DNA of 64,000 nt. It comes from Fistulifera solaris. Its lineage: Eukaryota > Bacillariophyta > Bacillariophyceae > Naviculales > Stauroneidaceae. The DNA is taken from the NCBI GenBank assembly GCA_030295235.1, contig AP026131.1:1054001-1118000 (forward strand). Direction: 5' to 3'. The notes below the pieces were generated by a model. It saw only the letters and a list, made by a program, of their open reading frames with translations. It did no database searches and was not told the origin of the DNA. Numbering within the stretch: the first letter of the stretch is position 1; each line of letters starts with the position of its first letter. The position numbers and the translations under genes are program-made. Below, one piece after another: positions 12,778 to 57,065 of this stretch.

Positions 12778-13080
12778 TGCACACGTAAAACTAGCAACAT
12801 TTTCTATTTTAAACACTACTTTTAGCAGTGCCCTGTGTGCGTTTGCATTATTTTTGAAACGCGTCCCGCATCTCATGGCATCCCATCCATGATGGTACCA
12901 TAGACATAGACCGTAGCTAAAACTAAACCTTACATGTTCGTGACTGAAATAGTATACCGAGTACTGTACTTTGTATGCAAAAGATTTACATCGGTTTCAC
13001 AAGTATCGGTGAGATTGCATTATCAAACACGGTCAAAAGGTCCATATTTCCATTTATCTAATGGAAACTGTTGGCCCTTA
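12778..13080. other. 3' flank of RPT6 up to the mariner element
   Basis: No gene seen. The last two bases (TA, 13079-13080) are one copy of the target duplication of the transposon that follows. Confidence 0.5.
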
Positions 13081-13110
13081 CCATTCGGGTCAAATGAGTT
13101 TCTAAGTACT
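13081..13110 (+). repeat. Left terminal inverted repeat of the mariner element
   Basis: Thirty bases inverted and repeated at 15082-15111 with one mismatch. Flanked by TA on the outside. Confidence 0.92.
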
Positions 13111-13214
13111 CTTTAGGTCTATACTCTTTGCCGTCACGTAAAAGCACGTAGAAAACCATGAAATGCCGATCGCAGCAAGATTAAATAAAGCTCTTCAAAC
13201 CATTCATTTGATTG

Positions 13215-15002
13215 TTACTCGTTGTCATTCTCTTCGTCGCTTGCTTCGTCATTCTCATTTTCGTTGTTGTTCTCTTGATCTTCGTCGTTTGTGTCGTTGT
13301 GGGCGTTCAGCAAATCGTCAATCGTTGGGTCTCTGAAGAGTTTGCCTCGTTCCGACTCGACCAGATTGTTGCCGCCTTTGTCGTCCACAATCAATTTCAA
13401 AACACGCCGCAATCGCTTCCACACGTTTAGAAATGCTTGAGGTGAAAGATGGTGCTCCCATGCCTCTTCAATTGATCGTGCAAGCGCATCGCAATCGGGT
13501 CGTTTTCCGTGATGAACCTTTTCGACCTTGTTTTGAATGCTCATCCAGACTCCGAGATCAAGCATGTTTGTTTCGGGCGACCGAGGAACTTGCCAGACAA
13601 TCTCAACGTTGTATTCGCTCTCCAATTTTCGTCTGTATTCTTCTTTGGCTAGCTGTGTTCCGTGTCCTCCTGCGTTATCCATCACCAGATAAATTTTCTC
13701 GTTCTTGTCCACCCAGTGAAATTTTTCTCGAAGTGCTTGACCGACTTGGTGCATAATGCTCAGCATGAAGGAAGAATCACAGGAAATGTCCACCTCGACT
13801 TTATGCCCTGCCGGGTAATAGCAACGAACTTCAAGCTCTTTGATGTCGAAGTCACACAGCTGATCATCCTCGTCTAAAGGTCTCTTTGTGACTGTGTTGC
13901 GAAATTGCAGGACTGCAGCCACTTCGTCGCGAAGCTCATAGAAATCGGAAAGTGCATCGAAAAACTCGCCCACTGTCATATCACCGCAGATGTCTTTCAA
14001 ATCATTGTAAAGGGCTCTCCAAGAGCCGTTCTTGATCTCGTTGTTGATCGAAATGCTGTCGTGAAACTTGTAACTTGGTGTTGCTCGGCTGTACTCTTTC
14101 TCTTTACTAACCCTTTTCATAAAGACTCTTCCGTCAAAATCTTTCGACTTCCTGGGCCTTGCAACAACGCCAAGGTGATTTTGTCGTCCGATTGACGAAC
14201 GTAGCGCGGAACCCTTTCGAATGCAAGCGCCAGTGCATATGTGATGGCGTTTTCGATCTCATCTTCTCTCGATAATGGCACAGCAAAGATTTCTTGTTCT
14301 TGTTCTTGTTCAAGAACAGCGTTAGCTAGTAAGTGCAGATTTTCTTGTTCATTTGCTGGGCGTACATGCTCGATTTGGTGTTCGCGGAGTACGTCTGAAG
14401 CAAGGCGGCATTTTTGCGGAGCTTGTCATCGGTCATCCCGGGAGGTCCCGGAGCTAACTCAGAAGCAACCATACGGGCACATTCCTTGACCTTAGAATAC
14501 AAAGGTTGCCCAACACAAAAGTAGAAAGCCTGCTTGCTGTGTGGTGGACGATAGGTGGAAATATGAATTTTCTTTCGTCCCATCTTGTCCACGAGTGTAT
14601 CAAGCGCTTCTTTCATCACAAAAAGTTTTTCGTCTCCCAAAACCACTTTCTTCTCCAAAATTTTGACATAAATCAATAAAGGACATATGTTCTCCCAATC
14701 GACTGAAGTTGCGTAGGAAATATCATCTTTTTATTGTTTTCTGGCAATAATCGCCACCAGATACCGGGAGTGGCATGACGAAACAATGCCACGACAACCG
14801 ACCAAATATCTTCGCACTCCGGGGCTCTGCTTGTGTTGTTTTGCACCGATCTATCACTCCTTCGTCGCTTGTTTGAATGGTGCAAAACAACACAAGCTCG
14901 CCCAGAATTGATTTCACTGCTGCGTCGTCGAGTCGCCATGGTCGGATGCATTTTTTGCGCGATAATGTCGTGAAGAAAAAATGTGTTCAGTGGGAAAGGC
15001 AA
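13215..15002 (-). CDS. Mariner-like transposase (DDxD type), frame broken at three homopolymers
   Basis: The C-terminal part (14120-13215) has a DDE-type core: YLVMDNAGGHGTQ carries one catalytic Asp and RSPETNMLDLGVWMSIQNK the last, as Asp rather than Glu. This resembles the SPDLNVLDLG motif of plant-like mariner elements. A very acidic Asn/Glu-rich tail follows. Upstream, three further frames carry the rest: 15002-14673, 14676-14326 and a stretch near 14320-14120. They join at 14678-14680, 14340-14343 and 14121-14123. Each join is a run of A or T and one added base keeps the frame open, so the gene may be intact. The start is uncertain; ATG 14940 (MATRRRSSE) is an alternative. The first catalytic Asp could not be assigned with confidence. 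Confidence 0.7.
14829..14897. repeat. 19-bp perfect inverted repeat with 31-nt loop inside the transposase 5' region
   Basis: GCTTGTGTTGTTTTGCACC at 14829-14847 is repeated inverted at 14879-14897. It lies in the N-terminal coding part of the transposase and would form a strong hairpin in the transcript. Confidence 0.8.
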
Positions 15003-15081
15003 GGTGTCGCTTCAAACGGTATACGATTTCTGTCGTAGAAACACACTTATGTATATAGTAATCGTGTCCTATATATTTTAT

Positions 15082-15111
15082 AGTACTCAGAAACTCATTT
15101 GACCCGAATGG
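15082..15111 (-). repeat. Right terminal inverted repeat of the mariner element
   Basis: Partner of 13081-13110; the single difference lies seven bases from the inner end. TA follows at 15112-15113. Confidence 0.92.
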
Positions 15112-15113
15112 TA

Positions 15114-49780: not shown

Positions 49781-51200
49781 ACTGCGGTCCAGAATTTCTG
49801 GAAATTCACAGAATTTCTGTACGAACCGAAATAACCTTTCCAGAATTCCTGGGCGATGCACTAATGGTCCAGACCTTCTGGAACAACACAGAATTTCTGT
49901 ATGATGCAAAACACATTTTCCAGAAATTCTGGAATTTGCATTTTGCTTCGTTATGATCGAAACACTGTTTCCTGAACTGTGGGAACGTGCGCAGCATTTT
50001 GATAGGATTCAAAACACCGTCTCCACATTTTTTTTTTATTAAAAAGTGCACAGCATTTCGTTAGGATGAAAAATTGGTCCAGAATTTCTGGACCAGCACA
50101 GAATTTCTGTATGATGCAAAACACTTCTTCCAGATTTTCTAAAACGTGCATTTTCTTTCGTTATGATCGAAACACTGTTTTCCTAATTGTGGGAACGTGC
50201 ACAGCGATTTGATAGGATTCCAAGCATCGTCTCCAAATTTTTTAAACGTGCACAGTATTTCGTTAGAATATCGAAAAATATTGGTCCAGAATTTCTGGAC
50301 CAGCACAGAATTTCTGTATGATGCAAAACATTGCTTCCAGATTTTCTAAAACGTGCATTTTCTTTCGTTATGATCGAAACACTGTTTTCCTGAATTGTGG
50401 GAACGTGCACAGCGATTTGATAGGATTCCAAGCATCGTCTCCAAATTTTTTAAACGTGCACAGCATTTCGTTAGAATCGAAAAATATTGGTCCAGAATTT
50501 CTGGACCAGAACAGAATTTCTGTATGATGCAAAACACTTCTTCCAGATTTTCTGGAATTTGCACTTTGCTTCGTTATGATCCAAAAAACAGTTTCATAAA
50601 TTTCTGGAACGTGCACATTCTTTTGCTATGATTTATGATCCCATACATCATATCCAAAATTTCTGGAACTGCACAGCATTTCGGTAGGATCGAAAAATAT
50701 TGGTCCAGAATTTCTGGACCACCACAAAATTTCTGTATGAAACATAACACATTTTCCAGAAATTCTGGAATTTGTACTTTCCTTCGTTATGATCCAAAAC
50801 ACAGTCTCATAAATTTCTGGAACGTGTACATTCTTTTGTTATGATCCCAAACATCATATCCAGAATTTCTTGAACATGCACAGCTATTCGGTAGGATGGA
50901 AAAATTGGTCCAGAATTTCTGGACCAAAACAGAATTTCTGTATGAGACATAACACATTTTCCAGAAATTCTGGAAATATTATTTTGCATTTGTTTCGTTG
51001 ATGCAAAACACAGTTTCCTGAAAATCTGGAAGGCACACTTTCTTTCGTTATGCTCCATACAGTTAATACGGTTTCATAATACTACGTAGCTGGAACTTGC
51101 TCAGCATTTTGGTAGTATCGAAAAATTGGTCCAGAATTTCTGGATTACCACAGAATTTCTGTATGAACCGAAATAAATTTTCCAGAATTTCTGGATCATG
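49781..51200. repeat. Palindrome-rich tandem array, about 207-bp period
   Basis: The 19-nt palindrome GGTCCAGAATTTCTGGACC or close variants begins at 49786, 49866, 50076, 50283, 50489, 50702, 50907 and 51128, so most spacings are 205-221 bp. Each unit also holds ACAGAATTTCTGT (13-nt palindrome), CCAGAAATTCTGG or a decayed form of it, and the words TCGTTATGATC, GAACGTGCACA and ATTTCGTTAGGAT. Neighbouring units are about 85-95% alike by eye, the centre most alike. No protein-coding character; open frames inside it are by-products. Confidence 0.88.
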
Positions 51201-55629: not shown

Positions 55630-57065
55630 CCACGCAGTTGCTGCAAAAATACGGGCTAAAATACATTCTGAGCGACCTAAGTGTCATCGCTGACGCTGCA
55701 GGAAATGCCATATAATGACGTCAACTAGCAACAAACCGCTCCCCGAGCGCTCCTCTTAGGCAGTTCTGTTAGACCTTCTTGGTGGCGCCTCGATTCTATA
55801 CATGTGCGTCACCTCCATAGCATACTTATCCTAAGCCTTCGATTAGCTACAAAACACGAATAATTGCTGTGGTTACCTTCAAATATTATGGAATGGCTAC
55901 AGAAACTGATTTCCAACCATGTACCTAGCTTTCGCTTGTTCCTCGAGTAACTGGTAAATGCTTCTTATGCTAGCGCAATAGGCTCAATGAATAAGATGCA
56001 GTTAGCTAAAGCAGGAATTGCAATGAGCTTCCAAGTCGCAATATATTGCGTCAACAGTTCTACTGAACAGTTTTCTTTCAGTTTTACTGATCGAAGACCC
56101 AAATATATCGCTAGACGACGTTTTCTCCACCACGACTGGATTAAGTCATAAGTCATGAGCAATGGCCGTGGATCATGATTGTATCGGGAAGAGCTGCTAC
56201 CTAACCTACGTGCATTCTACTAGGTTAATACGCCATAGTGATTTTATATCAATAAATATACCATCAACCTCTTAACAGCATTTGTAATGCACTTGGCAAT
56301 ATTTTGCTTCGACCAGCTCTTTTGAAAGGTCTACTCTAATTTTTACTGTAGTGCCCAAGTGTAGGCGACCTTTTCTACGACTGCATTTCAATCACGAATC
56401 ATGCATGAATCTGTGAATCTGCTTTTACGGAGTAACGGGAAGGACGTTAAAATTCTGCCTCTCAGTACAAGTTTCTACGTGGAGCCTACGGCGAGGCAGA
56501 ATTTTAACGTCGTCTCCACGAGCGGACCTTGAGACGACGTTAAAATTCTGCCTCGCCGTAGGCTCCACGTAGAAACTTGTACTGAGAGGCAGAATTTTAA
56601 CGTCCTTCCCTAATCTTCCAGCGCTACAGTACCAGATACCGGTACCAGAACCAGAACCTGTAGCATCAATTTTATTGGTGATTACTCCGTATTATTTAGA
56701 GAAAAAACAGTGGAAAATTCAGTCGAATGAGAAAATTCATTCGGACTTTAGGAAATTAGGAATAAATATTTAGGATTGTGTTAGACTATTTTTGGTGGAG
56801 GGTGGAGGAGATAATTGGGCAAAAGCGAAAGGCGATTAGGGTTTAGTGATATGTTACCATATGTCATCAAGAGGCCCAAAAGTATATCTAGGCTTTGTTG
56901 TACCAACCAGAGAGTACTTTAGTGATAAGTCGGAACTAGGAACGCCCTGCAAAATTTCAAGGCCAGGAACGAATACGAACACGAAAACGTTTTCCCTTGT
57001 TGCGCTCCAAAACAAATAATGAACCACGTTGACCTTTGTCTTAATCCTTCCTAATTCCTAATACA
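55630..57065. other. 1.4-kb intergenic region holding a large inverted repeat
   Basis: No gene supported. A TGACGTCA site lies at 55716-55723. The main feature is the inverted repeat at 56437-56610. Confidence 0.5.
56437..56610. repeat. Perfect nested inverted repeat, 80-bp arms, 14-nt loop
   Basis: Bases 56437-56516 are the exact reverse complement of 56531-56610; the spacer is 56517-56530. Each arm carries, at its two ends, the word GACGTTAAAATTCTGCCTC in opposite directions (for example 56443-56461 and 56493-56511), so the unit is an inverted repeat within an inverted repeat with four copies of the word. As RNA this would form an 80-bp hairpin; as DNA a cruciform. No open frame or clear target duplication is seen. 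Confidence 0.93.

Follow-up and report, generated by a model that had tools for sequence, protein, structure and literature searches.

The window analysed here, a stretch of 64 kb, corresponds to positions 1054001-1118000 of contig C9 in the 51.7-Mb, 61-contig genome of Fistulifera solaris, a diatom described as allopolyploid, with its chromosomes in 42 homoeologous pairs (PMC5935921). Between two genes, one with helicase-associated domains (PF03457, 54352-55629) and one for a protein kinase (PF00069, 57209-58039), with the nearest ORF of at least 150 aa about 0.7-0.8 kb away, lies a perfect inverted repeat that a first-pass annotation of the sequence had singled out. Measurement agreed with its description: the arms (56437-56516 and 56531-56610) are 80 nt each, 100% complementary and separated by 14 nt. 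Each arm is bounded, as had also been reported, by the same 19-bp word, GACGTTAAAATTCTGCCTC, in opposite directions. It was found with 0 mismatches at 56443 (+), 56493 (-), 56536 (+), and 56586 (-), and no further copy was found in the 64-kb window, where the chance expectation with up to 3 mismatches is 0.02. Folded as RNA, the palindrome gave -160.5 kcal/mol, compared with a mean of -49.1 for shuffled sequences (z -25.2).

The biological unit at the palindrome is a 79-bp element that occurs twice (56438-56516 and 56531-56609). The 80th base pair of the arms (G at 56437, C at 56610) lies outside this element and is accounted for by its match to the usual flanking bases: in an alignment of element ends (79 rows from 78 units, L035 being counted in both orientations), G was the commonest base before the left end (63/79 rows) and C the commonest after the right end (69/79). 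The features of the site are the following.

56435..56437, no strand: left 3 bp of unit 1, ACG; the right 3 bp are CAC, with no exact duplication
56438..56516, + strand: MITE unit 1, 79 bp, GGAAG...GTCTC, subfamily A, GTCTC-ended sub-subfamily
56443..56467, + strand: left terminal inverted repeat of unit 1, starting with the 19-bp word; 25 nt long, with 92% complementarity to 56487-56511
56487..56511, - strand: right terminal inverted repeat of unit 1
56517..56530, no strand: inter-unit gap CACGAGCGGACCTT, 14 nt, interpreted as host DNA plus target bases
56531..56609, - strand: MITE unit 2, 79 bp, opposite orientation, 0 differences from unit 1
56536..56560, + strand: inner terminal inverted repeat of unit 2
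56580..56604, - strand: outer terminal inverted repeat of unit 2
56610..56612, no strand: right 3 bp of unit 2, CTA; the inner-end 3 bp are CTT, a 2/3 match

Other repeats were seen in the window. At 56698-56784, 88 bp from the MITE pair, an 87-nt piece is identical to copies on C17, C7, and C3; it has a constant end, GGATTGTGTTAG, and variable neighbours, and looks like a 5'-truncated retroelement. Positions 49865-51200 hold a tandem array in which the palindrome TCCAGAATTTCTGGA is abundant, its periods being about 52, 104, and 213 bp. The stretch 13079-15113, which begins and ends in TA, is delimited by 32-nt terminal inverted repeats (97%) with 1971 nt between them, and the ORF inside (13215-14120, minus strand) has a weak, below-cutoff match to DDE_3 (E 0.0023); it looks like a decayed Tc1/mariner-type element.

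A search of the genome for the arm and for the word, as the annotation had advised, led to hundreds of other places. The single arm gave at least 82 matches (398 candidates, 40 scored); identity was 92-100% for most of them and 74-80% for a few that are composite or old. With up to 2 mismatches the 19-bp word was present at 757 places, which corresponds to about 380 elements, and its reversed control at 0; at 195 places both 17-nt end words were exact and in facing orientation, with 18-44 nt of middle sequence between them. The element consists of two terminal inverted repeats of about 25 bp (92%) around a middle of about 31 bp. As is typical of MITEs, the family is short, bounded by terminal inverted repeats and devoid of coding capacity, and it has many dispersed copies with uniform ends (consensus GAAAG...GTTTC for subfamily A and GGAAG...GTTCC for subfamily B). 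The proposal of "a new class of foldback MITE" is thus retained in its MITE-like part and abandoned as to a new foldback class, the palindrome being two MITEs with short terminal inverted repeats placed in opposition; it is ordinary once its parts are recognised. At two further loci, L110 (C24:875400-875800) and L111 (C52:2700-3200), which are nearly alike, the first end of the MITE is tandemly repeated beside a run of G. The exact 19-bp word had no match in viral, bacterial, and archaeal contigs, a set from which records near the genome of the window may have been excluded. Judged by titles and the beginnings of abstracts, searches of the open literature on diatom or Fistulifera MITEs and on MITE dimers turned up no account of this 79-bp family.

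The element ends were fixed by an offset scan for target site duplications (TSDs), in which the 3-bp excess sat 5 nt outside the core. The 3-bp flanks matched exactly in 29/79 rows, against a permuted mean of 7.6 and a maximum of 15 in 100 permutations. The duplicated triplets were CAG (10), CTG (6), CGG (5), CCG (5), and others (3), 26 of the 29 being CNG, and the dinucleotide matches that ranked above (39/79 and 38/79) each cover one half of the duplicated triplet. Since a 4-bp match including the first G of the element (17 versus 4.0) and an offset moved by one base (23 versus 6.4) were also in excess, the element end is certain to about one base and the TSD length is not fully certain. No exact TSD of any kind was present in 50/79 rows, and both units of the window lack an exact 3-bp TSD; the ACG to the left of unit 1 recurs on its right at a position shifted by one base, 56518-56520. 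The copies with the right end GTCTC carried an exact TSD in 1/9 cases versus 28/70 of the other rows, a difference that is not significant (Fisher p 0.14).

Unoccupied sites were sought by fusing the two flanks of each of eight insertions, with the element removed, and searching with the fused sequences; the coordinates of the matches served as the readout. Unoccupied counterparts were found for 2/8 junctions, and no spanning match for the other six. The junction of the unit at C1:1719371 is crossed by its homoeolog on C2 (C2:1614548-1614868, 75%, 321 versus 300 nt), a net difference of +21 nt, hence not base-exact. The unit at C1:546920 sits in a dispersed tandem repeat of which other copies span the junction, for example at C1:2053889-2054116 (228 versus 229 nt, 73%) and C33:656577-656747 (171 versus 172 nt, 80%). 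The short tandem repeat around the MITE in the right flank of locus L011 (C1:546992-547144; units of CCCAGAAAATC...) matches many contigs, and on C4 (1067355-1075145) the same block of these matches occurs three times, about 3.3 kb apart. In the C10 homoeolog of the window region, where the genes align at about 88% and the intergenic stretch is too diverged to align, no empty site exact to the base was found for the MITE pair; the C10 region carries two MITE units of its own, further downstream. None of 37 units lay within an ORF of at least 150 aa (loci of about 3 kb, ORFs taken as uninterrupted frames), although such ORFs cover 44% of 30 of those loci.

The right end GTCTC, searched as an exact pattern, defines a sub-subfamily of nine copies genome-wide that includes both window units. 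Four of the nine are identical to the consensus over 79 bp, and 6/36 pairs are identical. This bears out the recent copying that had been suspected, and the perfect arms therefore reflect youth and not a new fold-back class. Gene conversion, which had also been suggested, is unnecessary, since copies on other contigs are equally identical (C30:555530 and C45:269382). All nine copies are on contigs of class A as defined below (C1, C3, C5, C9, C30, and C45).

Close pairs of the element are not restricted to the window. Requiring exact words separated by 8-38 nt yielded five, where about 0.1-0.2 are expected; this is too many for independent insertion. At eight loci picked for having two units, seven pairs lay 0-32 nt apart, 5 direct and 2 inverted; in both inverted pairs the right ends face each other, and two direct pairs have one CCG or CGG triplet in common. 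For two of nine GTCTC copies to lie 14 bp apart, 2e-5 pairs are expected under independent random insertion, so that some local process is needed.

Very probably the palindrome is composed of two copies of a 79-bp non-autonomous DNA transposon inserted 14 bp apart, from a family amplified separately in each progenitor of F. solaris. This is backed directly by a dispersed family with defined ends, by the excess of 3-bp CNG duplications, by the absence from long ORFs in the loci read, and by the two unoccupied counterparts among the eight junctions. A transposase supplied in trans would have moved the units by a cut-and-paste mechanism. The pair in the window would derive from one young source copy that inserted locally a second time, or twice at nearly the same moment; the element would have re-inserted beside an existing copy and the locus would not have been inversely duplicated. 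The GG/CC ends and the CNG duplication would partly rebuild a C-CNG-G target and may invite a neighbouring insertion, but right flanks reading CNGG were found in only 24/79 rows. That the element tends to land next to its own copies, which would produce the tandem and inverted pairs, is a reading that we favour by a little, jointly with the use of the subfamilies as subgenome barcodes discussed below.

Inverse duplication of one MITE through template switching or hairpin repair, in place of two insertions, is unlikely. It would suit the identity of the arms, their common membership in the nine-copy sub-subfamily and the lack of a clean TSD at either unit, but the identity halts at the element ends, and a copying error is not expected to respect both. 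That the identity stops at the element boundary plus one usual base argues for two insertions and not for a copied stretch of host DNA. The only other inverted pair seen, at C8:132717, belongs to the other subfamily and has a gap of 10, which differs from that of the window; this speaks equally against a composite (dimeric) element moving as a single unit. In its favour, the direct dimer at C8:624605-624773 is, in our reading, CAG-unit-CCG-unit-CAG if the right end is one base shorter, as though that dimer had moved as a block, and the distance from start to start, 93, is the same in the window pair and in the pair at C2:1369952. The window dimer has no outer TSD (ACG/CTA), however, and no second copy of it was present among the 5 close pairs (exact words, limited gap), and we regard its movement as a dimer as improbable. 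A foldback transposon was rejected, as the long palindromic unit is not repeated as such among these 5 close pairs and the two inverted pairs seen differ in sequence and in gap.

It also seems rather improbable that the palindrome serves as a hairpin RNA source, its transcript being diced into small RNAs by which the MITE family or genes in the neighbourhood would be silenced. The perfect 80-bp stem with its low folding energy would be a suitable substrate, and plant MITEs are described as sources of siRNA and miRNA (PMC12595863). The palindrome gave no match at the gathering score of Rfam, however, and the three matches to miRNA models in a permissive search, at about half the gathering score or less, are possible for any long perfect hairpin. 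Perfect inverted repeats are a known shape of assembly artefact, and the annotation had raised the concern that one arm is a fold-back of the other. To judge from the sequence, this is scarcely credible: the two outer flanks are unrelated, the identity ends with an element known from many other places, where single copies stand in other flanks, and other close pairs exist in the genome.

In its middle part the element exists in two main versions, A at 112 places and B at 131 (pattern, up to 1 mismatch). For the tally by contig, 100 places were listed for each version. Among these, A was on 20 contigs and B on 24, C7 being the sole shared contig with one B copy, so that 1/200 listed copies were misplaced, versus a minimum of 47 in 10,000 shuffles. 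Marked contigs thus number 43/61 among the listed rows, one of them mixed. Genes on C1, C3, C7, C9, and C30 have homoeologs on C2, C4, C8, C10, and C31 with 87-94% identity, and in 5/5 of these pairs A is on one contig and B on the other; the class of contigs outside the five pairs rests on the MITEs themselves. Six gene pieces were searched; for the one from C14 no homoeolog was found, and the one from C3 also matched a further place on C3 itself (85%). The fetched units comprised 46 A on A-class contigs, 31 B on B-class contigs and one true exception, at C1:1016171; a second listed exception (A on B) is L035 read twice and not a true one. The B-type copies at C7:191905 and C1:1016171 (L014 and L046) are the only exceptions to the split that were seen. 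Copies differ from the consensus of their own subfamily by a mean of 2.3 of 79 bases (eight rows of unequal length or class excluded), and the two consensus sequences, A and B, are 8 bases apart.

The two versions of the element appear to mark, almost perfectly, the parent species of each chromosome. Amplification in each progenitor separately would have confined A to one chromosome set and B to its counterpart, and hardly any copies would have crossed between the subgenomes after hybridisation; the distribution of the copies suggests that there has been almost no jumping across since. Its simplest reading is separate amplification after the progenitors split, followed by hybridisation. The confinement of the nine-copy burst to one subgenome would imply that hybridisation is younger than the burst or that the element was shut off at once. 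We lean, if only modestly, towards the combined view that A and B are natural progenitor barcodes, that the youngest burst is confined for one of these two reasons, and that the element inserts beside itself. In a hybrid alga with unknown parents, a single 79-bp repeat thus sorts the marked contigs into two sets, and this sorting is an independent check on the published split by GC content and codon use. The order suggested is progenitor split, separate MITE bursts, and then hybridisation.

An autonomous partner sharing the terminal inverted repeat was not found among the loci examined. The genome has 25 matches to the transposase profile PF13359; the three best of these loci (L106-L108, about 1.3-1.5 kb per side) contained no MITE end, even when 6 mismatches were allowed. 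By coordinates, none of the MITE words listed (those with an unusual interior; C1-C6) lay within 20 kb of a PF13359 match. The end word with an unusual interior pattern occurred at 73 places (control, 1). The nine loci with the oddest interiors were rejected as partners, since they looked like MITEs whose middles were shifted, truncated, or rearranged, like half units, or like chance words. For the two best half units (on C6 and C15), a second end was absent from the 3.2 and 2.0 kb that follow, with 6 mismatches allowed. L108 was rejected as well, having GGGCC ends of its own, TTA flanks by eye and no detected MITE end. In its own right, this locus (C10:213000-216200), with a PF13359 transposase, an upstream part in another frame and GGGCC-like ends, is an ordinary PIF/Harbinger candidate. 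If the transposase of the MITE were found, or shown to have been lost or silenced at the merger, the family would be a clear example of how a transposon is controlled in a microalga once hybridisation has taken place.

On the evidence of its target sites, the family appears likely to belong to the CWG-type relatives of PIF/Harbinger. The best target-site match found appears to be the NuwaI group of PHIS (PIF/Harbinger-ISL2EU-Spy), described as having a CWG TSD and as occurring mainly in animals (PMC4482050). As in NuwaI, the TSD is of 3 bp with C first and G last, and 16/29 exact TSDs are CWG; unlike in NuwaI as described there, 10/29 are CSG and 3/29 neither, so that the preference here is CNG. 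Unlike in PHIS and NuwaI, moreover, no gene for a transposase or a Myb/SANT protein was linked to these MITE ends in the loci examined, and the CSG share and the lack of a linked transposase make membership in NuwaI tentative. With the Tourist-like PIF/Harbinger MITEs characterised in PMC12595863, the family shares its short length, terminal inverted repeats, high copy number, and 3-bp TSD; it differs from them in its CNG target, theirs being given as TWA, and in being very short at 79 bp. MITEs have likewise been reported from another diatom, Phaeodactylum tricornutum, for which a table gives totals of 235 and 150,035 (PMC5859163), the comparison being one of totals and not of sequences. Like the transposons that sort other allopolyploid genomes, the present family has subfamilies confined to one subgenome. 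Subgenome-specific repeats are named for F. solaris as a strategy needing long-read sequence, in the same source that gives the split by GC content and codon use (PMC5935921); here, a single 79-bp MITE family separates the contigs.
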